36,063 nucleotides of DNA from a virus, in IMG/VR virus record IMGVR_UViG_3300048930_001359, positions 1 to 36,063 of that record. One strand, given 5' to 3'. The first letter of the stretch is position 1. Each line of letters opens with the position of its first letter. Position numbers and translations under genes: made by a program. The notes beneath the pieces are model-generated. The model ran no database searches. It saw only the letters and a list, made by a program, of their open reading frames with translations, and had not been told where the DNA came from. Below are positions 1,543-35,833 of this stretch, piece after piece.

Positions 1543-2690
1543 GCAACGGTCGGCCGATGGTTCCGTTGGGCGACGTGCTCACCCGCTCAAGCGAGTGGAT
1601 TCCGATCCATGCGGATCAGTCGTATCGCGAAGTCACCGTGCGACTTTGGGGCAAGGGCGTCACGCTGCGGCGGGAATGCACCGGATCGGAAATCAAATCT
1701 GATCGCCGACTTCGAGTTCGCCCGAACCAGTTCATCGCGTCCCGCATCGACGCACGAAACGGCGCTTTTGGACTGATTCCCGCCGAACTTGATGGCGCTG
1801 TCGTCACCAACGACTTCCCGGTTTTCACTCCACACGACCAGCAGCTACTCCCGCAGTATCTCGGCTGGATGAGTCGCACTCGTTCGTTCGTCGAGATGTG
1901 CATCGCCGCCAGTGAGGGCACAACCAACCGCGTGCGGCTAAAGGAGGATCGCTTCTTGGCCATGGCCGTGCCGCTGCCACCCCTGAGCGAGCAGCGGCGG
2001 ATCGTGGCCCGAATCGAAGCACTCGCCGACAAGATCGACGAGGCGCGGGCGACTGCCCTCGGCGTTGAGGGCGACTGCGCTGCGATGCTCAGCAGCCTGT
2101 TCCGACAACTCGCCAACGACGCGCCTCGTCGTCCGCTCGGTGAAGTCGCGCGACTAACGCGCCGGCCAGCGGTGGTCGACCCCGCTGCCACTTACCCGCA
2201 AGTTTCCGTGCGATCGTTCGGGCGCGGCAGTTTCCACAGCGGCGTTCTCGAAGGATCGGCTATCACTTGGGAGAAGCCGCACCTCGTCTTGGCAGGCGAC
2301 ATCCTCGTAAGCAACATCAAGGCTTGGGAAGGCGCGATCGCTGTCGCATCGCCTGACGACCACGGTCGCTACGGCTCGCACCGCTACCTCACGTTTCAGC
2401 CTGTCAAAGGCATCGCGCTCGCCGAGTGGGTATGCCACTACCTGCTGTCGCCCGAGGGCCTTCACTACGTGGGGGAAGCCTCTCCCGGCAGTGCCGATCG
2501 CAACCGGACGACCAGCGCGAGGGCGATGTGCGCTATCGAAGTGCCGTTGCCGAGTGCGGAGAAGCAAGCGGTGTTCGCTGCGGCGAAGGCCAAGACCGCC
2601 GCGTTGAAGCGATTGCAGGCGGAGTCCACCGCCGAGCTTGACGCGCTACTCCCGTCAATCCTCGACCGGGCGTTTCGGGGGGAACTCTGA
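1539..2690 (+). CDS. hsdS: Type I restriction-modification specificity subunit (HsdS)
   Basis: HsdS reads the split target sequence and positions HsdM (and HsdR, if present). The start is a TTG embedded in the end of hsdM (ATTGA overlap). The 383-aa product has the usual two-fold arrangement: a first target-recognition domain (about 1-145), a conserved helical spacer containing LPPLSEQRRIVARIEAL, a second recognition domain (about 195-345), and a second helical spacer containing PSAEKQAVFAAAKAK. Repetition of the PLP-x-EQ/EKQ helix starts is typical of HsdS. No hsdR follows: the next gene is the opposite-strand end of the phage structural operon. The restriction subunit is therefore either to the left of the window, lost, or displaced by integration. 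Confidence 0.93.
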   Translation: MSNGRPMVPLGDVLTRSSEWIPIHADQSYREVTVRLWGKGVTLRRECTGSEIKSDRRLRVRPNQFIASRIDARNGAFGLIPAELDGAVVTNDFPVFTPHDQQLLPQYLGWMSRTRSFVEMCIAASEGTTNRVRLKEDRFLAMAVPLPPLSEQRRIVARIEALADKIDEARATALGVEGDCAAMLSSLFRQLANDAPRRPLGEVARLTRRPAVVDPAATYPQVSVRSFGRGSFHSGVLEGSAITWEKPHLVLAGDILVSNIKAWEGAIAVASPDDHGRYGSHRYLTFQPVKGIALAEWVCHYLLSPEGLHYVGEASPGSADRNRTTSARAMCAIEVPLPSAEKQAVFAAAKAKTAALKRLQAESTAELDALLPSILDRAFRGEL

Positions 2691-7527: not shown

Positions 7528-9528
7528 TTAGTCGAACTCCGATCCGTCGAGGTTCTGCATCTCGTCCAGCAGCTTCTTGGTGTTCTTGGCGGTTTCCTCC
7601 GAGGCCTTGGCGATGCGATCCGCCACGCCGCCCGAGCCCAGCCCACGCGCCTCGAACGCGTTGAAGGTGCCAGCGACACCGATGGTGCGTTCACGCGCCG
7701 CCGCGAGTTGGCCGCTTAGACCGGCCAGTGCATCTGGCGCATCCTTCGGGCGATCGGGACGCTTCGGAGCATTGGCGTCCTTGGCGTCGCGCTTCTGCCG
7801 GGCCTCGGCGATCGCGTCCTGCAGTTCCTGCTTCGCCTTAGCCAGCTCATCCTCGGCCGCCTTCACCTTGGCGGCGTTGCTTTCCTCCAGCGACTTCTGC
7901 TTGTCGATCGATTCCTGGCCGATGCGGGCGAGTTCTCCTTGATGGTCCTTCTGGGCCTGCTGGCGCTCGGCGGCACGCTGCTGCTCGCGTTCGCCCAGCG
8001 CCGTCTGCTTCTGACGTTCGATCTCGGCGTTGGCGCTGGCGAGGTCCTGATCGGCCAGCCTCTTGGCTGCATCGACGTCGAGGCTGGAATCGAATAGGCC
8101 CTGCAACTCGAGCAGTCGCTTGCTCGTCCAGTTGATCGCCTCGTTCCACGCCTGCGTGAACCCGCCGGTGAAGTTGGTCCAGGTCTTGGAGAGGAATGCG
8201 GTGGTCTCGATCCACGCGACGGTCAGCCCGTTCTGGATGATCTCCCACGCGGCCAGCGCGCCGTAGAAGGCGTCGTAGGCGGTCTGGATGAAGAAAGAGC
8301 GGAAGGTCAGCCAGATGCCCTGAATCCAGCCGACGCCTTTCTCGAAGGCGACGCGCAGCGTGAGCCAGAGGATCTTCCCGGCCAGCGCGATGTCGCCAGC
8401 GGCGAGGGCATCGGCGATCCCGCCGAACGCGGCGACGGCGAAGTCTTTGAGTTCGGTGAAGCGGTCTCCCAACCACGCCAGTGCGTCCGCGCCGACGCCG
8501 GATACATAGAGAAGGTATGCGCCGAGCCCCACGACGGCGGCGATGACCAGCCCGATGGGTGAAAGGATCGCTGCGAGGATGCTGCCGATCGTGCCGATCG
8601 CCGCGCCCACCGCGCCAGCGATCGTGGCCAGCGTGCCCAGGACGCCGCCCAGCGCCGTGATGGCGAGGCCCAAGCCGACCAGCGTCGCGCCGACGCCCAG
8701 CACGATCCCGGCGATCTTGAAGACGCTGACGATCAATTCCTTGTTGGCCTGCACCCAGTTGTTCACGCCCACCACGGCATTGGTCAGCCACGCTGCCAGC
8801 TTGCCCACCGCAGGTGCCAGTGCCGAGCCGATGACGAAGGTGGTGCGTTTGATCACCTTCCACAGCCGGTCCATCGTGTCGTTGAGCACTTCCGCCGCCT
8901 TGGCGTCCTCCGTGCTCATAGTCAGGCCGAGATCGCGGGCCTCCTTCTGCAGCGCCTCGATGCCCGCAGCGCCGTCCTGCATGAGCGGTAACAACTGCGC
9001 GCCGCTCTTGCCAAAGAGCTTCATGGCCAATGCCGCCCGCAGTGCCGGGGACTGCACCTGCGACAGACGATCGGCGATGAGCTTGAACTGCTCGTCCGGC
9101 GACTTGCCCTCAAGATCGGCGACCGTGAGGTTTAGTTGCCCGAGCGCCTCGGTGGCGCTGCTTGATCCCTTGGCGGCTTCGACGAGGGTCTTCTGCATCC
9201 GCCGAACGGAGTTCTCGAGCGTGGTGACGTCGGTGCCGGAGAGTTCCGCCGCGTAAGCAAGTTCTGACAGCGTTTCGACGGTGATGCCCGTCCGGCCCGA
9301 CATCTTCGCCAGCGCATCGCCCATCTCGCTAAAGACGGCGGTGGTGCCGGTGAGGGCCGACAGGATCGTCCCCGCGCCGGCGGCGATGCGTGTGCCGATG
9401 CCCGTGACACTGCTACCAAAGGCACGGAGACGCGCCGCCGCCTTGTCCAAACCCTTGATGAACTTGGAGTCGGACAGGAGCAGCTCGACGTACGCGCTGC
9501 CGGCCTTGATGGACGAAGACGATGCCAT
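7528..9528 (-). CDS. Phage tail tape measure protein
   Basis: The tape measure protein sets tail length and is ejected during DNA entry. The 666-aa product has the standard layout. An N-terminal helical region (about 1-235) contains the family-type stretch MGDALAKMSGRTGITVETL. A long Gly/Ala-rich hydrophobic segment (about 268-344) could form several membrane helices. A strongly charged coiled coil rich in Glu, Lys, Gln and Ala covers about 490-590. It lies directly downstream of the tail chaperone genes, as expected. By the usual relation of about 1.5 angstrom per residue, it would match a short-to-medium siphovirus tail of roughly 100 nm (inference). The start ATG has a weak AGGTGA ribosome site 9 nt away, lying at the end of the preceding 30-aa frame. 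Confidence 0.9.
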   Translation of the reverse strand: MASSSSIKAGSAYVELLLSDSKFIKGLDKAAARLRAFGSSVTGIGTRIAAGAGTILSALTGTTAVFSEMGDALAKMSGRTGITVETLSELAYAAELSGTDVTTLENSVRRMQKTLVEAAKGSSSATEALGQLNLTVADLEGKSPDEQFKLIADRLSQVQSPALRAALAMKLFGKSGAQLLPLMQDGAAGIEALQKEARDLGLTMSTEDAKAAEVLNDTMDRLWKVIKRTTFVIGSALAPAVGKLAAWLTNAVVGVNNWVQANKELIVSVFKIAGIVLGVGATLVGLGLAITALGGVLGTLATIAGAVGAAIGTIGSILAAILSPIGLVIAAVVGLGAYLLYVSGVGADALAWLGDRFTELKDFAVAAFGGIADALAAGDIALAGKILWLTLRVAFEKGVGWIQGIWLTFRSFFIQTAYDAFYGALAAWEIIQNGLTVAWIETTAFLSKTWTNFTGGFTQAWNEAINWTSKRLLELQGLFDSSLDVDAAKRLADQDLASANAEIERQKQTALGEREQQRAAERQQAQKDHQGELARIGQESIDKQKSLEESNAAKVKAAEDELAKAKQELQDAIAEARQKRDAKDANAPKRPDRPKDAPDALAGLSGQLAAARERTIGVAGTFNAFEARGLGSGGVADRIAKASEETAKNTKKLLDEMQNLDGSEFD

Positions 9529-9630: not shown

Positions 9631-9851
9631 GCGTGACCTCCGGGTCGGTTTTCGACGAACACGGTCTTCAGGATGCTCAAGTCGGCCTTGATGGGCGTTG
9701 TCTCGCTTGGGGTCGCGCGGGTGCTAGCGAGCGGGTGGAAGTCCTGGGGCTTGAGCGCGCGTCCCTTCTTTGGGTCGCGCTGAAGGTTGGCCAGCAGCGC
9801 CATCACGCTGCTCGCGTAGTTCCACAGGTCGTGTTGCCGCGCCTCGGCCAT
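9627..9851 (-). CDS. Tail assembly chaperone, downstream (T-like) reading frame
   Basis: In lambda-like phages the G and GT chaperones bind the tape measure during tail assembly, and GT is made by a -1 frameshift at the end of G. This frame sits in the T position, directly after the G-like gene. It contains the segment LWNYASSVMALLANLQRDPKKGRALKP. As a separate gene it would start at ATG 9851 (74 aa) with a GGGAG-type site 9 nt upstream. The same frame stays open upstream of that ATG and reads the protein-like sequence DPGRFTLRELLT across the end of the G gene. That upstream reading supports production as a G-T fusion through the CCCGGGC site at 9884-9878. Confidence 0.68.
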   Translation of the reverse strand: MAEARQHDLWNYASSVMALLANLQRDPKKGRALKPQDFHPLASTRATPSETTPIKADLSILKTVFVENRPGGHA

Positions 9852-9865
9852 TGTGAGGAGCTCCC

Positions 9866-10354
9866 TCAGTGTGAATCGCCCGGGGTCGATGCCGACGATG
9901 CCGGCGCATCGCCAGACCAGGTCCCAAGCCGCTGCAGCTCCGCTTCCATCCGGCGCTCGAGTTCGGGTGAGTCCAGCCGGGCGTCCACCGCCTTCAGCGC
10001 CGCCGTCTCCAGCGCCCGCAGCTTGGTCAGCGCCTTGGCCAGCACCGCCCGCCGGCCCTGCGGGAAAAAATCGACGAGTTCCTCCAGCAGCGCCGTCGTC
10101 GCGGCGTCGATCGCATCGCCCGCCATCGCGCGGCCGAAGTCGACGTCGCTGACGCTCTTGGCATCCGCTTCCGGCTTGCAGAGCGCATAGATCACGTCGC
10201 AGAGCAGGATGGGATCCGAGACGAGGCGTTCGAGCAGCTTGCCGTCAACGACTTCGAGCAGGTTCACTTGCGCGAGGTCGCGGACGCGCTTGATCGCGTC
10301 GACGTTCACTTGCACGGTCCACGTTCGGCCGGCGTTGTCGGAGAAGGTCTTCAT
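9866..10354 (-). CDS. Tail assembly chaperone, upstream (G-like) reading frame
   Basis: A mostly helical, acidic 162-aa protein located between tail tube and tape measure, the conserved position of the G chaperone. It begins KTFSDNAGRTWTVQVNVDAI, typical of this class in GC-rich phages. Two adjacent ATGs are available (10357 and 10354); the second has the better spacing from GGAG. Near the 3' end the zero-frame codons read ACC CCG GGC GAT, which contains the slippery heptamer C CCG GGC, and the stop follows 9 nt later. A -1 slip would yield a fusion of about 242 aa with the downstream frame. Family assignment is by position and architecture. Confidence 0.75.
   Translation of the reverse strand: MKTFSDNAGRTWTVQVNVDAIKRVRDLAQVNLLEVVDGKLLERLVSDPILLCDVIYALCKPEADAKSVSDVDFGRAMAGDAIDAATTALLEELVDFFPQGRRAVLAKALTKLRALETAALKAVDARLDSPELERRMEAELQRLGTWSGDAPASSASTPGDSH
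9878..9884 (-). promoter_or_regulatory. Candidate -1 programmed ribosomal frameshift site CCCGGGC
   Basis: The heptamer fits the X XXY YYZ rule in the zero frame of the G-like gene and lies 9 nt before its stop. After slipping, translation would continue CGA TTC ACA CTG into the T-like frame. Location and frame direction match the lambda G/GT arrangement. The overlap between heptamer and stop is too short to hold a stimulatory hairpin, so efficiency is unknown. Confidence 0.5.
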
Positions 10355-10408
10355 CATGAACTCCAGTTTGTTTTTCGTTGGCGACGCGGGTCTGCGTACA
10401 CTGCCAGT

Positions 10409-10465
10409 GGCTCGCGGTAGTCCCCGGTGTTGGCCCCCCCTCCATCACCAACCGCGAGCCTTTTT
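10409..10465 (+). terminator. Strong hairpin with T-run, oriented on the + strand
   Basis: A perfect 10-bp inverted repeat (GGCTCGCGGT at 10409-10418, ACCGCGAGCC at 10451-10460) is followed directly by TTTTT on the + strand. An inner 8-bp stem with one mismatch (GGTGTTGG with CCATCACC) extends the structure. It lies between the tail tube and chaperone genes, which are both on the - strand. It would therefore terminate an antisense transcript, or act as an RNA structure within the sense message. Confidence 0.5.
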
Positions 10466-10495
10466 CATGCGCGGAGGGAGGCGAGGCCGTCACGA

Positions 10496-10948
10496 TCACG
10501 TTCCGCCCGGCACGACCTTCCAGATCGGGGCGTTGGCGCTATACGTGGGCTTGGCCGTCACCTTCACGCTGATCGCGTCCTCCAGCGGCTCGTCCCGCGT
10601 GAAGTCGGTGATCGCGCAGTCGGCCCAGAGTCCTTGGCTGCCCGTGGTCGCCACAGCGCCGTCCATCGCGGCCATGCCGATGAGCGTGTTGTTGAAGTAG
10701 GCGTCCTTGATGGCGGTGAAGCCTGTGTCGGCCGGGTCCCAGACCATCTCGAACTCGATCGAGCCTTCCTTCAGCGTGGCGGCTGTCGCCTTCCAACCGT
10801 TGTTCGCGCGGGTGGTGACGTCCGCTTCGCCTTTCTGAAGGTTCAGCGTGACGTTCTTGACGTTGCCGAGCAGCGTCCAGGTGGGCGTGCCGCCGATGCC
10901 GGCGACGCAGTAGTAGAGCTTGGCATCGAGTCCGAGTTTGACACTCAT
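10496..10948 (-). CDS. Probable major tail tube protein
   Basis: The 150-aa beta-rich product contains segments typical of siphovirus tail tube proteins: an N-terminal AKLYYCVAGIGG, the central KGEADVTTRANNGWKATAATL, and IEFEMVWDPADTGFTAIKDA. The motif of a strand, then E-A-D-V-T-T-R, then 'SIEFEM' is common in tube subunits, which stack as hexamers to build the tail channel. GGAG precedes the ATG by 6 nt. It lies after the gp10-like gene and before the chaperones, the expected position. Confidence 0.82.
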   Translation of the reverse strand: MSVKLGLDAKLYYCVAGIGGTPTWTLLGNVKNVTLNLQKGEADVTTRANNGWKATAATLKEGSIEFEMVWDPADTGFTAIKDAYFNNTLIGMAAMDGAVATTGSQGLWADCAITDFTRDEPLEDAISVKVTAKPTYSANAPIWKVVPGGT

Positions 10949-10985
10949 GGTGATCTCCGTTGGTTCACTTCGTGACGCATGGCGT

Positions 10986-11378
10986 TCACTTCTTCACGCT
11001 GCCGGCCCACATCGCGGGCAGACGGCTCTTGCTCTTCTCCAGCGCCGGCCCCATGAACGGACGCTTGTCGTACTGCTCGCGCTTGTAGCGCCCGCCGAAC
11101 TCGTGGGCCTTGGCACTCGTCCCGGCGATCCCGACATCCGGTCCAATGACGACGCTCTGCTTGTCTCCCGCCACCGCGTACTTGATGGCGTTCTTGATCC
11201 GCCCGCGCCGCGTGTTCGGCGGCGAGCCGGGCGTGCTGGGCTGCTTCGACTTCTTGATCGAGCGCCGGGCCGCGATGCGGATTGCCGCACCCGCGTGGCC
11301 GAGGCTCTTGATTGAGCCTACCTTCGCCGCACGCTTGAGCTTGCCGGCGTCGAACTTGGTCTTGGCCCTTGCGCTCAC
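10986..11378 (-). CDS. HK97 gp10-like head-tail connector / neck protein
   Basis: A basic 130-aa protein with features of the HK97 gp10 family: a Lys/Arg/Ala-rich N-terminal helix, PGSPPNTRRGRIKNAIKYAV, then AHEFGGRYKREQYDKRPFMG close to the C-terminus. In this family the 'EFGG...RPFM.PA' signature precedes the final helix. These proteins act at the junction of head and tail. The start is GTG, overlapping the preceding gene's stop as GTGA. Next downstream is the tail tube gene. Confidence 0.8.
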   Translation of the reverse strand: MSARAKTKFDAGKLKRAAKVGSIKSLGHAGAAIRIAARRSIKKSKQPSTPGSPPNTRRGRIKNAIKYAVAGDKQSVVIGPDVGIAGTSAKAHEFGGRYKREQYDKRPFMGPALEKSKSRLPAMWAGSVKK

Positions 11379-11680
11379 GTGATCACCTTCCTCGCCTTCG
11401 CAAGCGCCCCGAGCGTGTTCACGAGCGTGTCGATGAGCTGACCGACCGCTTGATCGCTCCCGGCGAGCGCGAACAGATCGTCGATGCGCATCGTGCGCGG
11501 GCCTGCCGGGAAGCGGTGCCCGACGCCGTTCTCATCCCGCCCGTACAAGACGAACTCGGCGACTGCACTGACCTTGCCATTCAGGTCCGGCGCGTCGATC
11601 CGCAGGCTCTGCACCCACCAGCTGTCGTAGGTGCGTGGCTGGGGAACGGTGGTGATGACGTTGTCGGTGGTGATGGCCAT
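11375..11680 (-). CDS. Small phage protein, 101 aa
   Basis: The start at 11680 (MAITTDNVITTVPQPRTYDS) is preferred over an in-frame upstream codon because AGGA lies at good spacing and the gene then follows the stop at 11691 neatly. A beta-type N-terminal half (WVQSLRIDAPDLNGKVSAVA) is followed by a helical C-terminus (QAVGQLIDTLVNTLGALAKA). No domain was recognised. Position in the operon suggests a structural or assembly role. Confidence 0.65.
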   Translation of the reverse strand: MAITTDNVITTVPQPRTYDSWWVQSLRIDAPDLNGKVSAVAEFVLYGRDENGVGHRFPAGPRTMRIDDLFALAGSDQAVGQLIDTLVNTLGALAKARKVIT

Positions 11681-11690
11681 GTCGTGTTCC

Positions 11691-12539
11691 TCACGGGGTC
11701 CAGTTGGAAAGCGATGCACGCCGCCAGGTGTTGGCCGCGACGCAGACGTAGAGGTAGTTCCCGGCCCAGCGGATCTCGCCGACGGTGCCGGTGCCGGTGG
11801 GCGCGGGAGCAGTGCCGGCGCTGACCACCAGGGCGTTCGTCTCGACCTTGCCGCTATTGCGGAGTTCGCCTCCGCCCATCTCGAGTGCGGGTACGGTCGC
11901 GTTCACGTAACCGCCGACGGTCCACCCGTACGGCATGACGTTCCAGTTGGAGCCTGTCCACGACACCGGGGTGATGATCCAGTCTGAGCCGTTCCACACC
12001 GATGGCGTGCAGTCGTTGACGTTGGTGAAGACGGGGCTGCCGGTGGGCTCCTCGGCGACGAACTCCGTTTGCACGGTGAATGTGTTCGTCAAGCCAACAC
12101 GCTGGAACACGACCCTGCGGTAGTTGCGCCACGGCTGCTCATCTGGCGGATCGCCGTAGAACCCATCGGTGACATTGATCCACTCGTATCGCGAGAGCGT
12201 GGCGTTCCAAGTGAGCACCATCGGACAGAACTCGGAACCGATCCATGCGTCGCTGATCTCGGTCAGCTCGAACCAGAGCGGGCAGCCCGCCGGAAGATTG
12301 GCCGGCACAGTGCTTGGTGGCGTAAGGTCAATGCTGCGTCCCCGCGTGAAGATGCCAGTTTCGGCCAGCACCATCGGATCGGTGTCGCCAATCTGCAGGT
12401 TCGAGAACGCCGGGTTGGAATTGCGCCATTGGCCATACAGATAGCGCAGCAGCTGTCCGTGGCTTGCTCCGCTGATGGTGACGCCCTGGAGGCCCGACAA
12501 TGCCGGGGGCGAGGATGATCCGCCGCGATAGCCCATCAC
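11691..12539 (-). CDS. Phage structural protein with Gly/Trp-rich C-terminus, 282 aa
   Basis: An unrecognised protein rich in Gly, Trp, Asn and Thr. The N-terminus contains GASHGQLLRYLYGQWRNSNP. The centre has beta-like repeats such as WNGSDWIITPVSWTGSNWNV, with alternating Trp and Gly. The end contains GTVGEIRWAGNYLYVCVAAN and ASLSNW, a short C-terminal module often seen on phage fibre-like proteins. GTG (12539) or ATG (12536) could start it; the former has GGAGG 6 nt upstream. A fibre, spike or decoration role is plausible. Its position before the tail tube is unusual for a fibre, so this stays uncertain. Confidence 0.68.
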   Translation of the reverse strand: MMGYRGGSSSPPALSGLQGVTISGASHGQLLRYLYGQWRNSNPAFSNLQIGDTDPMVLAETGIFTRGRSIDLTPPSTVPANLPAGCPLWFELTEISDAWIGSEFCPMVLTWNATLSRYEWINVTDGFYGDPPDEQPWRNYRRVVFQRVGLTNTFTVQTEFVAEEPTGSPVFTNVNDCTPSVWNGSDWIITPVSWTGSNWNVMPYGWTVGGYVNATVPALEMGGGELRNSGKVETNALVVSAGTAPAPTGTGTVGEIRWAGNYLYVCVAANTWRRASLSNWTP

Positions 12540-23589: not shown

Positions 23590-24903
23590 CTCTGTGTCGC
23601 TGATCCTCACCGCCTTCTTGCCCGTGAACTTCTCGTATCGTTGCACGATGACATCGCAATACGGCATGTCGAGTTCCATCAGGAACGCGTTGCGTCCCGT
23701 CTGCTCGGCCGCAATCAGTGTCGAGCCGCTCCCGCCGAAGAGGTCCAGCACGTTCTCGCCTGCGAGGGACGAGTACTGCATCGCCCGCACCGCGAGCTCC
23801 ACCGGCTTCTCCGTGAGGTGGACCATGCTCTGCGGGTTCACCTTTTTCACGTGCCAGAGGTCGGTCGCGTTGTTCGGCCCGTAGAACTTGTGGGCAGCGC
23901 CTTCCTTCCACCCGTAGAAGCAGATCTCGAACGCGCCCATGAAGTCCTTGCGCGTCAGCACCGGGTGTTGCTTGTCCCACACGATGCCCTGGCTGAAGTA
24001 GAGCTCGTGCTTCTTCAGGAACGGCGGGTAGTTGCCGAGGTTCGCGTAGCCGCCCCAGACGTAGAACCCTCGGCCGGGCTCGAGCACGCGGGCGATGTTG
24101 CCGAACCACGCATCCAGCAGCTTGTCGAACGCATCGTCGGTCACGAAGTCGTTGGCGAGCGGACGGTCCTTGGCGCGCATCTTCTTCTGCGTCGGCTTGG
24201 CCTTGCCGGGGTGACGGGCGAGGTCCATCGACTGGTGATGCGTCGCGGGCTTGCCGGTCGCTTCGAACGACGACAGCCCGGCGGCGATGGCGTTGTTGCT
24301 GCGCGGCTCGACCTTCACGTTGTACGGCGGGTCGGTGTTCACGAGGTGAATCACCGCGCCGTCGAGCAGGCGATCCAGGTGCTCGGGATTGCTGCTGTCG
24401 CCGCACATGAGGCGATGATTGCCGAGCACCCAGATGTCGCCGGGCTGCGTCGTCGCTTCATCAGGCGGTAGCGGCACGTCGTCCGGATCGGTAAGACCCT
24501 GCTCGACATCGCCCGACATGATGCGCTTCAACTCTTCGTCGTCGAAGCCGAGCGTGCCAATATCGAAGTCCATCTCCTGCAGCGCCGACAGTTCGATCGG
24601 CAGCATCTCGTAGTTCCACTCGGCGATCTCGTTGGTCGCGTTGTCGGCGATGCGGTACGCCTTCACCTGCGCCTCGGAGAGATCGGTGGCGACGTGGACC
24701 GGCACCTTCGCGAGTCCCAGCTTCTTCGCGGCCTTGAATCGCGTGTGCCCGACGATGATCACGCCGGCGGCGTCCACCACGATCGGCTGGCGGAAGCCGA
24801 ATTCCTTCAGTGACGCGGCAACCGCATCGACGGCGTCGTCGTTGTTGCGCGGGTTGTTCGCGTACGGCTGGACCTGCTCGATGGGACGTAGTTCAATGTT
24901 CAT
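23539..24903 (-). CDS. ParB-domain DNA methyltransferase (class beta N4/N6)
   Basis: A fusion common in phages. Residues 1-100 form a ParB-like domain (GVIIVGHTRFKAAKKLG at 47-63). Residues about 155-430 form a methyltransferase with DPPY at 191-194 preceding FGGSGS at 389-394. That order (catalytic motif before SAM-binding motif) marks the beta class, which methylates adenine N6 or cytosine N4. HLTEKPVEL at 362-370 is also typical. AGGAG precedes the ATG by 6 nt. It probably protects phage DNA from host restriction or marks replicated DNA. The target sequence cannot be inferred. Confidence 0.93.
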   Translation of the reverse strand: MNIELRPIEQVQPYANNPRNNDDAVDAVAASLKEFGFRQPIVVDAAGVIIVGHTRFKAAKKLGLAKVPVHVATDLSEAQVKAYRIADNATNEIAEWNYEMLPIELSALQEMDFDIGTLGFDDEELKRIMSGDVEQGLTDPDDVPLPPDEATTQPGDIWVLGNHRLMCGDSSNPEHLDRLLDGAVIHLVNTDPPYNVKVEPRSNNAIAAGLSSFEATGKPATHHQSMDLARHPGKAKPTQKKMRAKDRPLANDFVTDDAFDKLLDAWFGNIARVLEPGRGFYVWGGYANLGNYPPFLKKHELYFSQGIVWDKQHPVLTRKDFMGAFEICFYGWKEGAAHKFYGPNNATDLWHVKKVNPQSMVHLTEKPVELAVRAMQYSSLAGENVLDLFGGSGSTLIAAEQTGRNAFLMELDMPYCDVIVQRYEKFTGKKAVRISDTESSSGSQLPDEVVETTK

Positions 24904-24983
24904 TGGCTTCTCCTGTTGTGTTCAGCGTGAGTGCCCACGACGCCGGCGTGGCGTTGGGTGTGGTTCTTTTCTTCGGAGCACCG

Positions 24984-25223
24984 ATGCCGATTCGACGTGA
25001 CCGCCGTGGACGCGGTGGCGGGAAGCCTCCACCCAAGCCGCCGACTCCCAGGGAGTGGTCGGATGCGGCTCTGTCGCTCGTGAAGCACCGCCACGTGAAT
25101 GACGCCGACGCGACAATGTTCGAATTCGCGAAGTCGATCACCCGAGGCGGCAAGACCTGGACGCAGAAGCTGTGGCTCAACATCCACCAGCTGCACGGCA
25201 TCGCGCGCGACCATGCCGACTGA
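24984..25223 (+). CDS. Small basic protein, 79 aa
   Basis: The ATG at 24984 has CGGAG five bases upstream. A Arg/Gly/Pro-rich start (MPIRRDRRGRGGGKPPPKPP) leads into a helical body (SDAALSLVKHRHVNDADATM, FAKSITRGGKTWTQKLWLN). The body looks protein-like and is not easily explained as antisense of another gene. It is divergent from the methyltransferase, 80 bp away. Function unknown; possibly a small DNA-binding protein. Confidence 0.6.
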   Translation: MPIRRDRRGRGGGKPPPKPPTPREWSDAALSLVKHRHVNDADATMFEFAKSITRGGKTWTQKLWLNIHQLHGIARDHAD

Positions 25224-25483
25224 GTCCGGGCGGATTTCTCGCGAAAGAAAGTCAGTCGGAAATGGTTGGCGTTCCCACGGCCATCTCTTTCGAGCCTGCG
25301 CCGGGAAGTACCTAAGCCGGGGGAGGGGGCGGTCCGCTTTGTCTCTGCCACTCTGGCACCCCGCGCCAGTCGCACCGTGGGCCACGCGGCCGCAAGGCGG
25401 GACGACGATCGCCACGCCGCCAACGGACGCGACGTGGGCCAACCCGTGGCGAACGGGTTGGAACGAGCGTGCGGGGTTGTCGG

Positions 25484-25675
25484 TCACGTGGCCGGACTGG
25501 ACGGTTCCGGAGACGGTCGGGCACGCAGCCAACGCGTCACGCACTTGGCGCAGCGAGGCAACACCTGCTGGTCGTAAGATGGATCGACGCCGTGCTTCCG
25601 AAAGCGTCCGAACTGCACCCGTTGGTCGGCCCACCGCATTGCTCTTCCACACGCTCGGCAACGCCCATTGATCAT
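25484..25675 (-). CDS. Small zinc-ribbon protein, 63 aa
   Basis: The start at 25675 (MINGRCRACGRAMRWADQRV) has GGAG 6 nt upstream. Two Cys pairs, CRAC at residues 6-9 and CAKC near residue 46, are about 37 residues apart and would chelate one zinc. A basic C-terminal tail follows. It lies just beside the iteron-like array, so a DNA-binding role in replication is possible but unproven. Upstream in-frame sequence is low-complexity and unlikely to be coding. Confidence 0.55.
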   Translation of the reverse strand: MINGRCRACGRAMRWADQRVQFGRFRKHGVDPSYDQQVLPRCAKCVTRWLRARPSPEPSSPAT

Positions 25676-25693
25676 GGTTGGCTCCGTCAGTCC

Positions 25694-25915
25694 TGTGCCG
25701 CGTGTGCCGCGATGTACCGCGACCCTCCCCTGCGCTTGTAACTTTTCTCCTGCGTGCGCACGTGTGCGCGCCCGCGTGCGTGCGTAAGTGGGGAACATCG
25801 CGGTACACCGCGGTACAGACGCATTTCGACTCGGTGAATACGAGGGATTCCTGTACCGCAGTCCGCATTTCGATCGCGGCACAACGCGGTACAAACACCC
25901 CCTCATCGCGGCACA
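25694..25915. repeat. Iteron-like array, nine copies of CGCGG(T/C)ACA; candidate replication origin
   Basis: Copies on the - strand lie at 25694-25702, 25703-25711, 25713-25721 and (one mismatch) 25852-25860. Copies on the + strand lie at 25799-25807, 25809-25817, 25875-25883, 25885-25893 and 25907-25915. Adjacent copies are spaced 9-10 bp apart, about one helical turn. The centre holds a relatively AT-rich patch (25737-25749) and an alternating purine-pyrimidine tract (about 25751-25786). The array sits between the primase-helicase stop and the zinc-ribbon gene, as expected of an origin or a cooperative operator. Confidence 0.65.
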
Positions 25916-25963
25916 AGACCGCCTGCGGCGTGGCCGACAGGGCTGGGAAACGGTGCGCGCGGC

Positions 25964-28408
25964 TCATGGCACACCTCCTGCGCGCAGCCCGATACCTTGG
26001 TAGAAGCGGCCCTGGATGCTGTGCTTGCGACAGACCACGCCCGGGACGGCGGCGGCCAGGTCGCGACCGAACGTCTGCTTGTTCGTGACGACCATTCGGC
26101 CGTCGGCCTCGCACCACGACTTCCAGGCGTTGTAGAGATCGTCGACCCAGGCGCGGTGGGTCGGAGCCACCTCGCAGCGATCGCGCACGAACGCCATCAC
26201 CGGCGACGCCAGGTCCTCAAGGTCCTGCACCGCGTCGGCGACCGACTGCGGCTGAACGAAGTGCCCGCGTTGGCGAAGGCGCTTCAGCCCCTCGATGGCC
26301 CAGAGAAGGATGCCCGGCAACTCTTCCATCAGCTGATGGGTCAGCGTCACATCCTCGTTGCCGTAGAAGCTGCGGGTGAGACGCAGGATGACGAACCGGC
26401 CCGCGAGCGCGCCGCTGGCGTCGTTCATGCGTGGCAGCTCGTTGGTCAGGAACACGAATCGGGTCGGCAGCTTCATGGTCACGCTGCCCAGGAACTTGCG
26501 GTCGACCGTAAGCGTGTCCTCACCGCTGATGCACAGCAGGCGCTCGACGACCACGCCGATGTTCTCGCCGCTGAAGCGGGCGTCCGAGACAATCGCCAGC
26601 GACTTGCCGATGAGCGACTGCAGGCCGAACGTGCCCGCGAGGCTCGAGGTGGTCGGTCCGACCACGTTGCCGCTGCCGACGAGGCGCGACATCACCCGGC
26701 CGATCGTGCCCTTGCCCGAGCGCTTTGGCCCGACCATCAGCAGCATCTTCTGCTGGCTGGTGTCGGCGACGAGCGAGTAGCCCATCCACTCCTGCAACAA
26801 CTGGACGGACTCAAGATCGTCGCCCCAAAGCTGTTCGAGGAAGCGAATCCACCGGTCCGGCGGCTCCGGGTTCGGTTCGTAGGCGAAGTCGATCGAGTTG
26901 ATGTTGAACAGCGCCGGCGTGGGGACGTAGATCGTTCCGCTCGCCAAGTCGAGCGTTCCAGACGGGTACGGCAGCAGCCAACGCGGGTCTGGCCCGTTGG
27001 TACGACCGTTGAGCCAACTAGGTGGCGTCACGCTCACCGGAAGATGCGCATGTGCGCGGAGCGATTCGACCGCAGACTTGATGGTTCCCGGGTTGGACTC
27101 GAAGTCGACGAGCTCCATCTGGCCCGACTGCTTGTTGAACTGATACCGCAGTGCGTCATGTAGCCACGGCTGGATCTTCTGCCGGAGCGTCTCTTCTTCA
27201 ATCTCGACGTAGCGGTTGCCGCGCCACGCCATCAACGTGCCGGCGTAGCTGTGCAGCGTCCGCCCTTGGGGGTGCTGATGGAATTCTTGGACGAAGGCCT
27301 GCGCTGTCGGCAGCGTTCGCTTGGGCGAGAGCACGAGACGACCCGTCTCCGGGTCCTTCTCTCCCAGCGCGATCATGCCGGCGGCGTCACGAAGGACGTC
27401 GTCAGCGTCCTCCTCCGTCACCACGGCACTCTTCTGGCTGGGCCGGCGCGGGCGGTACTGCGCGGTCACCGTCGCCAGGGCTTTGTCGATCGTCATCTCG
27501 CCGTAGGTCTTGGCTCCGTGCTTCTCGTCCCACTTTTCGCGCATGAGGCCCGAGCGTCGGAACAGCGTGTCGAGCTGGCGTGCGTCCTTAGTGTAGAAGG
27601 CGAGCGAGAAGACCAATGACGAATCGGCCTCGCTTTGAGAGCGGAAGTGCCCGTTCCAGTTACCCGCCCAGAGATCGCGGAATTTCGCGCCGCTACGGCT
27701 TCGCGAGGCTTTCTCGATGATCTCGTCGTCCGTGAGGGCGTAGCGGTCATGCGGGTAGTCGCCGGCGTGCGGCGGCGGGTCTGGCGGCTTCGGAGGTGGG
27801 GTCGGCTTCGGTTTCCCGAAGACCTCGCCGTAGATCGCGTCCACCGCAGCCTGCGCTGTCCGAACGTCGGTGGGCGATGAGCCGAGGTGGTTGCCGGTGA
27901 TAGTGAAGAACCGGTCGTGGTCGTACATCTCGACCTCGCCATCCTCGAACGCGGTCTTGCAGCGCGGGCCGGGCTTGGACGCCTCGACGATCACCTTCAC
28001 GCCGGTTCCCGAGGGACTGATCTCGGCGTAGCTGGCGAGCAGATCGATGAAGCGGACGCCCCAAGTCTTGATCTCGCCGGTCTCGGTATCGATGCAGTCG
28101 TCCAGATCGATGCCGCAATACCGATCGTCCGCCGCGAAGACGTAGCCGATGCCTTCGAAAACGTCGGACCGCTGATAGGCGGCGAGCGCCTCGTCGAAGG
28201 TCGACCATGTCTCGGGCTTCGTTGAATCCGCCATCGTGCCGCTACGGGCGTTGAACGGCACCTTCGTGGGCTTGCCGCCGCGCGTGACGTAGCGCCAGAC
28301 CACCCACTGCGGGCGGGCGCGGAGACGTTCATCAACACGACCAACCGCAACGACGTACTCGTCACGGTTGGTCGAAGGGGGCTCGGATTGGATCGAAGTT
28401 GGGTCCAT
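25964..28408 (-). CDS. Phage primase-polymerase / SF3 helicase fusion
   Basis: A replication protein of about 814 aa. The start at 28408 (MDPTSIQSEPPSTNRDEY) is chosen because family similarity begins just after it (PQWVVWRYVTRGGKPTKVPF); upstream in-frame sequence is not protein-like. No strong ribosome site is visible. The N-terminal primase-polymerase domain (about 30-200) has the acidic motif GIDLDDC at 99-105 and SPSGTGVKV at 131-139. A helical bridge follows. The C-terminal helicase has Walker A GPKRSGKGT at 560-568 and a B-type strand SLAIVSDARF at about 603. It makes primers and unwinds DNA at the phage origin, which probably lies directly downstream at 25694-25915. Confidence 0.9.
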   Translation of the reverse strand: MDPTSIQSEPPSTNRDEYVVAVGRVDERLRARPQWVVWRYVTRGGKPTKVPFNARSGTMADSTKPETWSTFDEALAAYQRSDVFEGIGYVFAADDRYCGIDLDDCIDTETGEIKTWGVRFIDLLASYAEISPSGTGVKVIVEASKPGPRCKTAFEDGEVEMYDHDRFFTITGNHLGSSPTDVRTAQAAVDAIYGEVFGKPKPTPPPKPPDPPPHAGDYPHDRYALTDDEIIEKASRSRSGAKFRDLWAGNWNGHFRSQSEADSSLVFSLAFYTKDARQLDTLFRRSGLMREKWDEKHGAKTYGEMTIDKALATVTAQYRPRRPSQKSAVVTEEDADDVLRDAAGMIALGEKDPETGRLVLSPKRTLPTAQAFVQEFHQHPQGRTLHSYAGTLMAWRGNRYVEIEEETLRQKIQPWLHDALRYQFNKQSGQMELVDFESNPGTIKSAVESLRAHAHLPVSVTPPSWLNGRTNGPDPRWLLPYPSGTLDLASGTIYVPTPALFNINSIDFAYEPNPEPPDRWIRFLEQLWGDDLESVQLLQEWMGYSLVADTSQQKMLLMVGPKRSGKGTIGRVMSRLVGSGNVVGPTTSSLAGTFGLQSLIGKSLAIVSDARFSGENIGVVVERLLCISGEDTLTVDRKFLGSVTMKLPTRFVFLTNELPRMNDASGALAGRFVILRLTRSFYGNEDVTLTHQLMEELPGILLWAIEGLKRLRQRGHFVQPQSVADAVQDLEDLASPVMAFVRDRCEVAPTHRAWVDDLYNAWKSWCEADGRMVVTNKQTFGRDLAAAVPGVVCRKHSIQGRFYQGIGLRAGGVP

Positions 28409-28447
28409 CGCGGTCCGGTGAAGTTGGACCACACGCGCACACGGCGT

Positions 28448-28580
28448 GCGGGATGTCGGCCGGGCGTTCCACGCCACCTCGACCGGGTTCCGCCGTAAGC
28501 CGGCGAAAGTCTGCCGACGGCACCTGGCCCCGGAGCACACGCTCAAGGGAAGTGACCGACGCTCCCGACCGACATCCCGC
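28448..28580. repeat. 12-bp perfect inverted repeat upstream of the primase gene
   Basis: GCGGGATGTCGG at 28448-28459 and CCGACATCCCGC at 28569-28580, separated by 109 bp, in the non-coding gap between the primase start and the preceding gene. They could be paired operator sites, or the ends of a small mobile fragment. No gene is visible between them. Confidence 0.45.
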
Positions 28581-28596
28581 TCCACCGCACACGATT

Positions 28597-28956
28597 TCAT
28601 GCGACGGCAGCAACGGCCTCGCGCGATGCGCCGAAGCGATCGCCGACCGAGGAAGCCGCTTCGGCTGGCGAAGCGGCGTCGCTGCGACGCTGGCCCCGGG
28701 TCACCGCGAATGCTTCGTTGCCGAACTCGCGAAGCAGGAAGCCGCCGTAGATGCTCACAACGCTCTGACCCACAGGGGTCGCGGCATCGACGCTGATCGT
28801 GCGCCGCGGCTCATCGACGAAGTAACCGCCGTCCACGCGGACGCGGGCTTCACCGAACAGGCCTTCGGCGGCGACGAGCGCCAGTTGCAGGGTCATCTCG
28901 GCCTCTTCCAGGGGCACCGTCGGATCGAACTTAAATCGATAGATTTCGACGGACAT
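28597..28956 (-). CDS. Small protein, 119 aa, unknown function
   Basis: Two in-frame ATGs exist; the second (28956) has the better distance from TGGAG. The first 85 residues are well structured in appearance: VEIYRFKFDPTVPLEEAEMT, then ALVAAEGLFGEARVRVDGGY, SVDAATPVGQSVVSIYGGFL. The rest is Ala-rich. It is the first gene after the recurring motif at 29021-29036 and precedes the primase. No family recognised. Confidence 0.72.
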   Translation of the reverse strand: MSVEIYRFKFDPTVPLEEAEMTLQLALVAAEGLFGEARVRVDGGYFVDEPRRTISVDAATPVGQSVVSIYGGFLLREFGNEAFAVTRGQRRSDAASPAEAASSVGDRFGASREAVAAVA

Positions 28957-29020
28957 GGTCATGCTCCAAACTCGCCGGTCGCCGCACCGGGCGCGTGAAC
29001 GCCTCGACGCGGACTCTCCG

Positions 29021-29110: not shown

Positions 29111-29692
29111 CTATTCGCCGCCCAGACCGGCGTCCTCGAAGCGCTGGCGAAGCTGCTTCATCCGCGCGTAGAGCGTCGAACGCGCCACGCCCGCGGCATC
29201 AGCGGCTTCGGACAAGTCCTCGGTCGCCATGATGGCTTCCGCGATCTTGCGCAGACCGTCGGGCAGGCCGGCGAGCACCGTCCGCACGTCGTCGGAAGTC
29301 TGCTCGTCGTGCGGCTCACGCAGAGTGCGTCGCGCGCGATCCGCATCCGACAACAGCTCGCGCAGCGGAACCGGCGCGCCGTCGATGATCACCGTGGTGG
29401 TGTCGATCGAGCTGGTCGGTCCGCCGCCCGAGCGGCACTTTCGCCGGCGCTCACGGAGGATCATCCGCACGGCGTTGTTCACGACGCGGTCGGCAAACGT
29501 CTCGATGGACGCCCGCGCCGGATCGAACTTGTGCGCCTTGCGGAGGAGGTGAAGGGACAGATCGTGTTCAAGGTCGTCCCGGTCTGACCGGGAGAAGCCC
29601 ACCTTGCGGACGAGCTGGCTTGCCTTGTACTTGATCAACGAAACGGCGTAGGCGGTGAAGACCGCGTGCCGAGGGTCGGGCGTGTTGCCCAT
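29111..29692 (-). CDS. Phage-borne RNA polymerase sigma factor (ECF-like)
   Basis: The 193-aa protein has the two domains of a small sigma-70 family factor. Region 2 (about 15-85) contains VGFSRSDRDDLEHDLSLHLL and FADRVVNNAVRMILRERRRK, typical of core binding and -10 recognition. Region 4 (about 135-190) has a helix-turn-helix, DLSEAADAAGVARSTLYARM. No anti-sigma gene is adjacent. It probably redirects host RNA polymerase to phage promoters. It lies alone between two hairpins, so it may be transcribed on its own. The sequence GACCTAT, shared with the recurring motif, occurs just upstream at 29717-29723, but seven bases alone are weak evidence. Confidence 0.88.
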   Translation of the reverse strand: MGNTPDPRHAVFTAYAVSLIKYKASQLVRKVGFSRSDRDDLEHDLSLHLLRKAHKFDPARASIETFADRVVNNAVRMILRERRRKCRSGGGPTSSIDTTTVIIDGAPVPLRELLSDADRARRTLREPHDEQTSDDVRTVLAGLPDGLRKIAEAIMATEDLSEAADAAGVARSTLYARMKQLRQRFEDAGLGGE

Positions 29693-32103: not shown

Positions 32104-32859
32104 TCACGAGAACAACGACAGCTCCCGCTTACGCAGGAGCCAACCAGAACTTTCCAGTGCGATACGCATCGACTGGGGCGACACCTGAAACCTGTCGGCC
32201 ATCGGCTTCGCGAATAGCTCAAGAATCGCGGAATCGATCTGATCGGATTGTGACGGGTCACCGAAAGCTTCGACGCGCCGGCGAGCTTCTTCTTCGTGAT
32301 CGCCACGGATGTCGTCGAGCACGACGGGATCAAGACTGCCACGCCAGCCGCTCCACGCAGACTTCACCAGCGCCGCCGGCATCAGCAGGTTGGCCGCGAA
32401 CTGATCCGCCTGCCATTCGACCGGCTTCTTCGCCTCGGCCTTGCGACAGACATAAGCGGGCGCGCCCGGCGCACCGAAGAGCTTTCCCTGCGCCGCATTC
32501 TCAAGGTAGAGCGATCGATGCAGCCGCCAGTGGCCGATTTCGTGCGCGAGCGTGAAGCGATAGCGGCCAAGCTTCTTCGGGTTGGAAGTCGGCTCGAGGC
32601 TTTGATCGACGCGGACGGTTTGCTCGTTGATCCAGATCGCACCAAGCACGTCGGCGAATCCGAACTGGGCGCGTAGGTCAGCGATCTCGAAGAGCAGCTG
32701 GAGGTGGATTTCGAGAATGTCCTCGACCGGCACGGGCGGCGCGACGACGGGTTGGTGCCGCTGACCGTATTCGGCAAGAAGCAAATCGGCCTCCTCCTTG
32801 ATCCGCTTCTCGTGGAGGAAGGGCACGCCGCCAGAGGTTGAACCCGATCGACCGGACAT
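32104..32859 (-). CDS. ImmA/IrrE-type zinc metallopeptidase
   Basis: The 251-aa protein has the gluzincin motif HEIGH at residues 106-110 within FTLAHEIGHWRLHRS, and a second metal-side helix EWQADQFAANLLMP at 148-161. This is the signature of ImmA/IrrE peptidases, which cleave or inactivate a partner XRE repressor to induce mobile elements or stress genes. The partner, an XRE regulator, is encoded 3 nt upstream on the same strand. The C-terminal 80 residues hold a helical extension probably used for sensing or partner binding. Confidence 0.9.
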   Translation of the reverse strand: MSGRSGSTSGGVPFLHEKRIKEEADLLLAEYGQRHQPVVAPPVPVEDILEIHLQLLFEIADLRAQFGFADVLGAIWINEQTVRVDQSLEPTSNPKKLGRYRFTLAHEIGHWRLHRSLYLENAAQGKLFGAPGAPAYVCRKAEAKKPVEWQADQFAANLLMPAALVKSAWSGWRGSLDPVVLDDIRGDHEEEARRRVEAFGDPSQSDQIDSAILELFAKPMADRFQVSPQSMRIALESSGWLLRKRELSLFS

Positions 32860-33293: not shown

Positions 33294-33766
33294 TCGCGCT
33301 GCACCACTACATCTAGGGGGTGCGTGGGTCCAGCGCACGTTTCGGACACTTGAACGAGCGAGTCTACCCGGTCGGGTAAGCCGAGACCAACCCACGAGGT
33401 ACGCTGGCGTTCCCAGCGGGTTTCCGCGGTGAGCGACTGCAGCTCTCGCAGCGTCACCGGCGCTCGCCCGCGCACGTATCGCGGCAGGAAGAGCAGCGTC
33501 TCCTGAAGGTCGGGTGCGAGGTTCAAGAGGTTCATGATCTGCGTCACGCGCGGCTGCGTCACCATCGCCAGTTCGGCAAGGTCGGCGTAGTCGCGAACAA
33601 CGCCGTCGCGGAGGAGGCCGTCGAACCGATGGGCCAGTGCCATCATCCGCGAGATGCGCGGGATGCGTCCCTCCGGCACCGTCGATGCGGCCGACGCCGT
33701 CGTGCTGATCCGCGTGCGGCGCTCGCGCCGCTGGATGAAGATCTTAGTCGTCAACGTCACGCTCAT
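33290..33766 (-). CDS. HTH protein linked to the serine recombinase, 158 aa
   Basis: The start at 33766 (MSVTLTTKIFIQRRERRTRI) has GGAGG upstream and overlaps the recombinase stop as ATGA. Residues 58-80 form a helix-turn-helix (DYADLAELAMVTQPRVTQIM) like the KorB/ParB type. A region of PRYVRGRAPVTLRELQSLTA follows. Upstream in-frame sequence lacks a ribosome site. It is probably an accessory DNA-binding or directionality protein for the recombinase, inferred from the coupling. Confidence 0.8.
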   Translation of the reverse strand: MSVTLTTKIFIQRRERRTRISTTASAASTVPEGRIPRISRMMALAHRFDGLLRDGVVRDYADLAELAMVTQPRVTQIMNLLNLAPDLQETLLFLPRYVRGRAPVTLRELQSLTAETRWERQRTSWVGLGLPDRVDSLVQVSETCAGPTHPLDVVVQRD

Positions 33767-35343
33767 GCTGCCACCTCCGTCGTCTGCTCGGCGAAAATGC
33801 GGAACCCGCCGGGTCGAAACGTCACCGACACTGATCCTTCGTGGGCGTCGTACTCCACGCGCTCGATCAGCAGCGTGAAGAGCCGCGCCCGCTCGCGGGG
33901 GCTGAGTCGGTTCCACAGGCTGTCGAAGTCGGTCAACGCAGAGGCCACCTCGGCCTCGCTCGTGCAGTCGCGTTCTAATTCCTCGGTCTTCGCGTTCAGT
34001 TCCTGCAGGCGTCTCTCGGCCTTCTGCACCCGGTCCTGGATCTCGGCGGCGCGAGCGAGATGGTTGGCGTCGTGGACCGCCGCCTGCGAGAGACGCCGCA
34101 CCTCGGCCCGGTCACGACCGAGTTCGCGGTTGAGCATCGCCCGCTCGGACTGGATTTCGGCCAGCGCGTCGGACACGCCGCGCGACGCTTCCTCTGCGAC
34201 CGACGCCAGCAGTTTGGGATCGGCGGCGATCCCGCGCACCTGGTCGAGCACAACCTTCTCAATCTCGAGTGCCGACAGTGAACCCGACGGGCACATGTGT
34301 GCGCCGCTCTTGATCGAGTTTGTGCAGACGTAATACCGGTAGAGGTGGGCGCTGCTCTTGCGCCCGCGCGAGAACGAGTGGACCATCGCCCGGTTGCAGG
34401 CTTTGCACCGAAGCAGCCGACGCAGCAGCGCGCCGTAGCGGTTCCGCACCTCGTGACTGCCGTTACGGCCATTGTATTGGAGCATCTGCTGGACGCGGGC
34501 GAAGACCTCCGGCGAGACGATCGCCTCGTGCTCGCCCTCGAAGACATCCTTCTTGTGGCGAATCTTCCCGATCAGCACCGGGTTGGTCAGGAACGTGTAG
34601 AGCGTCCCCTTGTCGAAGCGCCGGCCGCCGCGAAGCACGCCGCGGCGCGAATTCAGTTCCTTGGTCCGCCAGCCGCGCCGGTTCAACTCCGTGACCGTCG
34701 GCAGGAGCGATCCCTTCTCGAGGTACATATCGAAGATCGCGCGGGTGCGGGCCGCTTCCTCGGCGTTCACCACGAGCTTGGGGCTCGGACCGGAGCGATC
34801 AACGTCGTACCCGAGCACGGGCATCCCGCCGGACCACTTTCCCTTGCGGCGCTGGGCCGCGATCTTGTCCCGGATGCGCTCGCCGATGATCTCGCGCTCG
34901 AACTGGGCGAAGCTCAGCAGGATGTTGAGCGTCAGTCGGCCCATCGAGTTGGTGGTGTTGAAGTGCTGCGTCACCGAGACGAACGACACCTTGTACTTCT
35001 CGAAGACCTCGACGATCCGGCAGAAGTCGGTGAGCGAGCGGCTGAGGCGGTCCACCTTGTAGACGATCACGCAGTCGATCTTGCCCGCCTCAATGTCGCC
35101 GAGCAGTTGCTTCAGCGCCGGTCGCTCGGCGTTCCCGCCGGAGTAGCCGCCGTCGTCGTACTTCGCGGGCACGCAAACCCACCCGGAGCTCTTCTGGCTG
35201 GCGATGTACGCCTCGGCGCTTTCGCGCTGGGCGTCCAGCGAATTGAACTCCTGGTCGAGGCCGTCTTCAGTGCTCTTGCGGGTGTAGATCGCGCAACGCA
35301 CCTGTGCCGGGCTGGAGGCTGGTTGATTGGTGTTCCTACTCAC
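33763..35343 (-). CDS. Large serine recombinase (resolvase/integrase family)
   Basis: A site-specific DNA recombinase that could integrate and excise the element. A GTG at 35343 has GGAGG 6 nt upstream; an ATG 24 nt earlier lacks such a site. Numbered from the GTG, the nucleophile is S24 in CAIYTRKSTEDG, with YKVDRLSRS at about 95-103 and FEREIIGERIRDKIAAQRR around 147-165. The recombinase domain follows, then a zinc ribbon (Cys 313, 316, 340, 351) and a C-terminal coiled coil. It overlaps the DUF2924 gene by 8 nt. Confidence 0.94.
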   Translation of the reverse strand: MSRNTNQPASSPAQVRCAIYTRKSTEDGLDQEFNSLDAQRESAEAYIASQKSSGWVCVPAKYDDGGYSGGNAERPALKQLLGDIEAGKIDCVIVYKVDRLSRSLTDFCRIVEVFEKYKVSFVSVTQHFNTTNSMGRLTLNILLSFAQFEREIIGERIRDKIAAQRRKGKWSGGMPVLGYDVDRSGPSPKLVVNAEEAARTRAIFDMYLEKGSLLPTVTELNRRGWRTKELNSRRGVLRGGRRFDKGTLYTFLTNPVLIGKIRHKKDVFEGEHEAIVSPEVFARVQQMLQYNGRNGSHEVRNRYGALLRRLLRCKACNRAMVHSFSRGRKSSAHLYRYYVCTNSIKSGAHMCPSGSLSALEIEKVVLDQVRGIAADPKLLASVAEEASRGVSDALAEIQSERAMLNRELGRDRAEVRRLSQAAVHDANHLARAAEIQDRVQKAERRLQELNAKTEELERDCTSEAEVASALTDFDSLWNRLSPRERARLFTLLIERVEYDAHEGSVSVTFRPGGFRIFAEQTTEVAA

Positions 35344-35833
35344 GCAGTCCCTCCGTGGTCTTGGCATCCAGCCGGAAGAACCGGAAGCCGTTGATGTGGC
35401 TGCCCGTCACCGCGCGGGCGACCGATGTCAGCGTGCGATGGAACTGGCCGTTGACCTCAAAGCCGTCGGCCAGCACCACCACGCGGATCGGCTGCCCGCG
35501 GTACTCCCGCCGGATGGCCGTGCCTACCGGCGGCACCCGGGCGTCGTGCGGCATCGGGGTGATCGTGGTGATGCCGGGCGAGCCTGGGTTCTTGTGCGCG
35601 CGGGGTGGGGCAACACGGACGTCTGCGTCCTTCGCCAACTCTGCCGCCCGTTTCCGGGCACGCTCGGTCAGGTCGCCATACGCAAGTGCCTGAACGCGCC
35701 ACGCGATCTTCCGCACCAGGTGCGTGCGGTTGCGGCTCGGCGTCCGCTCGCCGTAAAGCTCCGCGTACTTGTCGAGCAGCGACGCCATCGCCATCCGCTC
35801 GATCTCCTGAAGTTGTTGGGTCACATCAGTCAT
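35336..35833 (-). CDS. DUF2924 family protein
   Basis: The 165-aa protein has the DUF2924 layout: a helical start (IERMAMASLLDKYAELYGER and LVRKIAWRVQALAYGDLT) followed by a basic beta region (GTAIRREYRGQPIRVVVLAD, GFEVNGQFHRTLTSVARAVT). The family is often encoded next to large serine recombinases, as here. The 'RREYRGQ...V..DGFE..G..Y.SLS..A..ITG' region resembles a DNA-binding domain used by mobile elements. Its ribosome site is weak, and it overlaps the recombinase gene by 8 nt. Confidence 0.9.
   Translation of the reverse strand: MTDVTQQLQEIERMAMASLLDKYAELYGERTPSRNRTHLVRKIAWRVQALAYGDLTERARKRAAELAKDADVRVAPPRAHKNPGSPGITTITPMPHDARVPPVGTAIRREYRGQPIRVVVLADGFEVNGQFHRTLTSVARAVTGSHINGFRFFRLDAKTTEGLRE

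Follow-up and report, generated by a model that had tools for sequence, protein, structure and literature searches.

An array of nine short repeats (iterons) that begins 48 bp past the stop codon of an 878-amino acid (aa) primase-helicase gene is very probably a phage replication origin, bound by the C-terminal winged helix of the primase-helicase itself. This assignment starts from the array, its conserved position and geometry, the covariation of its iterons with the wing of the winged helix, and the predicted fold of that domain, all of which were observed here. The sequence analysed is a complete IMG/VR virus record of 36,063 bp (the window); related loci are labelled with L-numbers, and the phage group is known here from metagenomic and MAG contigs only. 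Among the genes of the record are those for a large serine recombinase, a GpA-type terminase, a lambda-type portal and a Mu-like capsid, a set that fits a temperate tailed phage. The recombinase (33763-35367, minus strand) has Resolvase, Recombinase and zinc-ribbon domains and is probably the integrase. Type I restriction-modification genes (an HsdM-like N6_Mtase and an HsdS-like specificity protein) are located at the left end (1-2690, plus strand), on the strand opposite the phage genes, and may be either phage cargo or flanking host DNA.

The first-pass annotation of this region described nine copies of CGCGG(T/C)ACA between 25694 and 25915, and these were confirmed: eight are exact and one, on the minus strand at 25852, has a single mismatch. 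The distal set consists of three copies on the minus strand (25694-25721; CGCGGCACA at 25694 and 25703, CGCGGTACA at 25713) with 9-10 bp spacing. On the other side are a plus-strand pair (25799-25817; copies at 25799 and 25809, 10 bp spacing), the lone inverted mismatch copy TGCGGTACA (25852-25860, minus strand) and a proximal plus-strand triple (25875-25915; copies at 25875, 25885 and 25907, spacing 10 and 22 bp). The strands at these coordinates agree with the annotated arrangement of an inverted trio facing mostly direct copies, and the 9-10 bp steps within clusters with the annotated spacing of about one helical turn. The expected number of 9-mers is 1.3 in 36 kb and 0.008 in 222 bp, and the probability of finding eight or more in the array is approximately 3e-22. 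A scan of the whole record, as the annotation had proposed, recovered only two additional exact copies (at 23127 and 29743), both isolated and about at chance level, and no second cluster of the 9-mer exists anywhere in the 36,063 bp. The small AT-rich patch that had been noted is a modestly AT-richer stretch (25823-25852) in the 43-bp gap from the pair to the inverted iteron; it is the least stable 30-mer of the origin and a candidate melting site, with 1.2% of such windows elsewhere being less stable. GC skew shows no informative switch at the array, a point against the origin assignment, and tRNA and Rfam scans gave no matches.

The iteron sets are separated by an 86-bp GC-rich gap, which contains the alternating purine-pyrimidine tract (25751-25786) also reported in the annotation. 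In this tract, 33 of 35 steps alternate, making it the most alternating 36-mer of the record, a level reached by 0 of 35,572 other windows. A hairpin origin was considered and is not favoured, on mixed folding results: the gap and its tract fold no better than shuffled sequences in the window (z -0.6), L154 or L157, and the gaps of L153 and L172 do fold better than their shuffles. The motif CACTTACG / ACTTAC occurs at 25780-25790 and is found beside or inside the array gaps of many relatives (L076, L082, L083, L087 and L093). This motif could be a priming start site of the NrS-1-type PrimPol, and the ACTTACG beside the tract, seen in several relatives, is a candidate for the 8-nt template recognition site used in de novo synthesis.

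The array is conserved in related elements. Along the coding direction of the primase gene, the window iterons form a triple (22 and 10 bp), then, after 23 bp, an inverted copy, after 43 bp a pair (10 bp) and after 86 bp an inverted triple (10 and 9 bp). Two relatives have the same iteron as the window and very similar spacing: L153 (the same phage as L047) with 21-11-23-43-10-84-10-9, and L152 (the same phage as L070) with 22-11-23-43-10-84-10. The distal iteron set is conserved in both L153/L047 and L152/L070. Among the other relatives examined, most have an array of another iteron unit right after the primase (ACCGTCGCG, ACTGTCGCG, ACCTGCGCG, AGTACCGCG, TGGCACGCG, TGACACGCG, AGTCCCTAG, TGCTACCCC and others). 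When exact 8-mers were scored, no more than 2 of 200 shuffles were equally repetitive in 18 of 28 D5-type loci; the arrays of L158, L169, L163, L164, L160 and L176 do not reach significance by this measure alone. Iteron cores were picked by the analyst from computed clusters, and the L158/L169 core was assigned by analogy. Arrays are also present in relatives with another helicase half (L087, L088, L093, L094, L107 and L017), so the layout is not confined to a single helicase type. No exact-8-mer array was found downstream of the primase of Klebsiella phage Carvaje (30% identical). Three of the related loci have unusual features: in L017, a Phycisphaerae contig, the array TACGGGCGCA (8704-8882) falls within the 3' end of the primase-helicase ORF rather than after it; in L076 (G001; approximately 9716-11970) the primase occupies more than one frame, with a break near window aa 383 that is a frameshift, a sequencing error or a real split; and in L088 (1129-2964) an AAA_24 ATPase is split by an intein that bears a LAGLIDADG endonuclease domain.

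The alternating tract recurs along with the array: the array region holds the most alternating 36-mer of the locus in 20 of 34 loci (the window included, and several being near-duplicates). The best 36-mer of L155 is beside the central gap, not inside it, and by this 36-mer measure there is no such tract in L161, L168, L170, L214, L219 or L107. Tract composition shifts while alternation is kept, with 67-89% GC in nearly all loci and 36% GC in L213, which has GTATGTATATGCACACACACACAC. What many relatives have conserved is the alternation rather than the sequence itself. This is a new detail; in the literature searched, nothing close was found on alternating tracts or Z-DNA in iteron origins. 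We infer a structural role for the tract, for which a B-to-Z transition or easy unwinding are candidates.

The primase-helicase (25964-28600, minus strand) is the proposed initiator and consists of an NrS-1-type PrimPol core with HBD, a D5/SF3-type helicase and a C-terminal winged helix. The PrimPol core plus HBD matches PF22763 (5e-26), and Foldseek matches it to the NrS-1 structures 7rr4 and 6jon (E about 1e-18). The nearest solved full-length relative is the SaPI5 primase-helicase (PriRep) 7ola (profile E 7e-49). In the full-length model the helicase core is poor, with pLDDT below 50 over much of aa 647-747; the AlphaFold model of the isolated C-terminal domain has a mean pLDDT of 79. The winged helix (aa 816-872; coding region 25985-26155, minus strand) is delimited by AlphaFold models, fold match and covariation. 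P4 and RFX1 domains are grouped together as winged helices (PMC10516667). The best structural match of the window domain is RFX1 bound to DNA (1dp7; Z 11.1, rmsd 1.7, 73 residues), followed by RFX5 (Z 10.7) and the P4 origin-binding domain (1ka8; Z 10.1, rmsd 2.3, 79 residues), all well above a cullin-type background with Z about 6. In a profile search, RFX5 was matched at 9e-6 and 1ka8 only at 0.5. By its modelled fold, this is an origin-binding-type domain, and it is predicted to bind DNA. The first-pass annotation had stated that no initiator gene is obvious; this statement is best withdrawn, since an origin-binding-type domain is part of the primase-helicase itself. An iteron plasmid origin of the RepA/RepE type would have a separate Rep initiator and DnaA boxes; no Rep family match was found among the window proteins scanned, which represent part of the ORFs. 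Genes for a sigma-70 region 2-like protein (29111-29692, minus strand) and a 121-aa protein (28597-28962, minus strand) precede the primase, and both proteins recur in L070, L081, L082, L083 and L093.

Iteron type follows mainly the wing of the winged helix (aa 854-872; 25985-26041, minus strand), not the neighbouring methyltransferase. The difference in identity between same-iteron and different-iteron proteins is 0.18-0.28 at aa 838-877, versus -0.05 to 0.11 elsewhere in the protein. Wing-iteron correlations were assessed with Mantel permutation tests on distances, which are not phylogenetic tests: for 24 loci, the wing correlates with iteron distance with r 0.77 (partial 0.67), and for 15 loci with r 0.81 (partial 0.83). 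In the same 15 loci, the body of the protein gives 0.09 and the two halves of the methyltransferase give 0.27 and 0.13. In the strictest set (13 loci), the partial correlation is 0.46 for the wing (p 0.001) and 0.00 for aa 760-815. Across the sets the signal falls off within 40-100 codons upstream of the wing (aa 760-815, partial 0.00-0.14), and segment 400-600 of the protein shows a weaker correlation with the iteron (partial 0.28-0.42). Individual loci follow the same pattern. The L152 primase-helicase is 79% identical to those of L155/L160, which have another iteron, and 62% identical over the alignment to that of the window; it has the window's wing, HSIQGRFY, plus the window's iteron. L168 and L172, whose proteins are just 43% identical to that of the window over the full length, have the iteron AGTACCGCG and wings with an RN..GR-type turn, a recurrence of similar wing and iteron. 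Taken with the RFX-like fold, the covariation suggests that the wing is the reader of the iteron. RFX1 puts its wing into the major groove, a contact reportedly described by Gajiwala in 2000 (a paper cited in PMC10516667), and this agrees with the wing being the part that varies with the iteron.

Covariation of this kind could also arise if wing and array were merely linked and moved as one recombination block, the iterons being read elsewhere on the primase-helicase or by a different protein; we consider this unlikely, and the assignment of the array as an origin would not be affected. No coding sequence lies closer to the array than the wing codons, which are approximately 70-125 bp from the first iteron and could therefore travel with it without any contact between protein and repeat. 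The spacer inside the L152 array also moves with the wing and iterons: it is 82/79% identical to that of the window/L153 and 69-70% to that of L154/L155, and only its last 26 nt resemble the L154/L155 group. An argument against linkage from an independently inherited spacer was dropped when this was found. The collapse of the correlation within so short a distance upstream and the recurrence of similar wings and iterons in L168 and L172 do not prove recognition, but on sequence grounds they argue for it over co-transfer; in addition, the fold of the domain is that of a known origin-binding domain.

The first-pass annotation had offered three candidate binders, namely the primase-helicase, the 63-aa zinc-ribbon protein and a host protein, and only the first has gained support. 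The primase-helicase and the ParB_N/methyltransferase are the sole genes common to nearly all of the array-bearing loci compared, and the primase-helicase is favoured as the binder because its wing tracks iteron type and because array and gene stay together even where no methyltransferase was found nearby. Iteron plasmids do use a separate Rep for iteron binding, and a zinc-ribbon, sigma-like or host protein might likewise bind the origin here and recruit the primase-helicase secondarily. We regard such an arrangement as very improbable, given that it is the primase-helicase wing that tracks the iteron unit. A homologue of the zinc-ribbon protein was found only in L005, whose iteron is different. 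L152/L153, with the same iteron as the window, yielded none; since these relatives lack it, it cannot be a binder of general use. The sigma-like and 121-aa proteins were not found in every array-bearing locus, and the units differ from phage to phage, unlike the boxes of host proteins. The methyltransferase (ParB_N/N6-N4, phrog_498) was likewise tried as a binder and rejected. It is the next conserved gene downstream in most close relatives, and the array could in principle be a partition or methylation site that it reads; this is highly improbable, as iteron type does not covary with the methyltransferase and arrays occur where the fetched flank shows no methyltransferase (L168, L170, L172, L214 and L215; the L087 sequence ends before one could be seen).

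The annotation also left the choice between origin and cooperative operator, and of these the origin is the better supported. As an operator, the repeats would be bound cooperatively by a regulator or by the primase-helicase itself, which would control the genes downstream. Helically phased repeats are typical of operators too, and the zinc-ribbon and methyltransferase genes are downstream on the same strand. The array sits between co-directional genes, however, and neither promoter-like nor terminator-like sites were found in 24850-26100 (promoters being scored against the sigma-70 consensus only). No regulator gene is common to all loci, the array persists where the downstream genes differ or are absent, and its geometry equals that of P4 ori1. 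Transcriptional control by the array thus seems a slim prospect.

By analogy with P4, PICI and A2, we infer binding, melting, loading and origin activity as follows. The primase-helicase, encoded by the adjacent upstream gene, would use its C-terminal winged helix to bind the nine iterons. The one-turn spacing of the copies and the two opposed sets would allow the protein to form helicase rings, probably two that face each other. It would then melt the origin DNA, at the AT-richer 43-bp gap, the alternating purine-pyrimidine gap or both, and load itself, after which the PrimPol domain would prime. We also advance, as a conjecture that may well prove wrong, a broader possibility for this large group of PrimPol-helicase phages: the opening element might be strict alternation rather than AT-richness, acting by a transition, B-to-Z or similar, that supercoiling drives between facing helicase rings, with wing and origin exchanged between phages as one cassette that resets specificity. 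In that case the alternating pattern would be kept while its sequence drifts, being (CG/CA)n in phages of high GC content and (TA/CA)n in AT-richer ones.

With this assignment, an anonymous repeat array becomes an origin with a named initiator and domain. The initiator and origin are adjacent and covary, so many such pairs could be read from sequence data. These pairs could teach a wing-to-iteron code, predict the incompatibility of co-infecting phages and serve in the construction of orthogonal replicons. With the conserved alternating tract, the old question of whether Z-prone DNA plays a part at replication origins becomes directly testable in a small system.

The closest parallel in geometry is P4 (NC_001609), whose alpha protein is likewise a primase-helicase fusion initiator with a C-terminal winged-helix origin-binding domain (1ka8). 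P4 alpha has a different primase half. The type-1 iterons of P4 ori1 are spaced 10-44(inverted)-21-11-10, matching the arrangement of the first six window iterons: both have steps of approximately 10 bp and an inverted copy at 43-44 and 21-23 bp. The 44-bp gap of ori1 is AT-rich, and the 43-bp gap of the window likewise holds its modestly AT-richer stretch. P4 crr is directly 3' of the alpha gene, as the window array is 3' of the primase-helicase; P4, however, has two separate clusters (ori1 and crr) of CTGTTCACC, whereas the window has one cluster plus an inverted set beyond the alternating tract. Lactobacillus phage A2 (AJ251789) encodes a homologous PrimPol-helicase (27% identity, full length), and its annotated rep_origin (32208-32717) overlaps the 3' end of the primase; direct iterons, inverted iterons and an alternating tract are all present in it. 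The A2 iteron is ACGGGAGGA and its alternating centre, TATATATA, is AT-rich, in contrast to the GC-rich centre of the window. pRN1 ORF904 combines a PrimPol, an SF3 helicase and a winged helix, with an essential site just 3' of the gene (PMC4234260); that site is a 100-nt stem-loop without iterons rather than an iteron array.

In PICI origins, which directly follow the 3' end of rep, two sets of iterons are described on either side of an AT-rich region (PMC6092414). The C-terminal domain of SaPI Rep recognises iterons directly downstream of rep, and that of Cch2 binds repeats downstream of its gene (PMC7581432). As in these islands, which encode a Rep or a fused Pri-Rep, the iterons of the window and its relatives are immediately 3' of the initiator gene, and two opposed sets flank a centre. 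The window is a phage rather than an island, and its centre is not the AT-rich region of the PICI plan but the GC-rich, alternating 86-bp gap; it is therefore a variant and not a plain member of that plan. The origin probably works like the P4/PICI type, with the primase-helicase as its own initiator. Origins of this kind are already known; the joint change of repeat sequence and protein tip and the conserved alternating tract are the new details.
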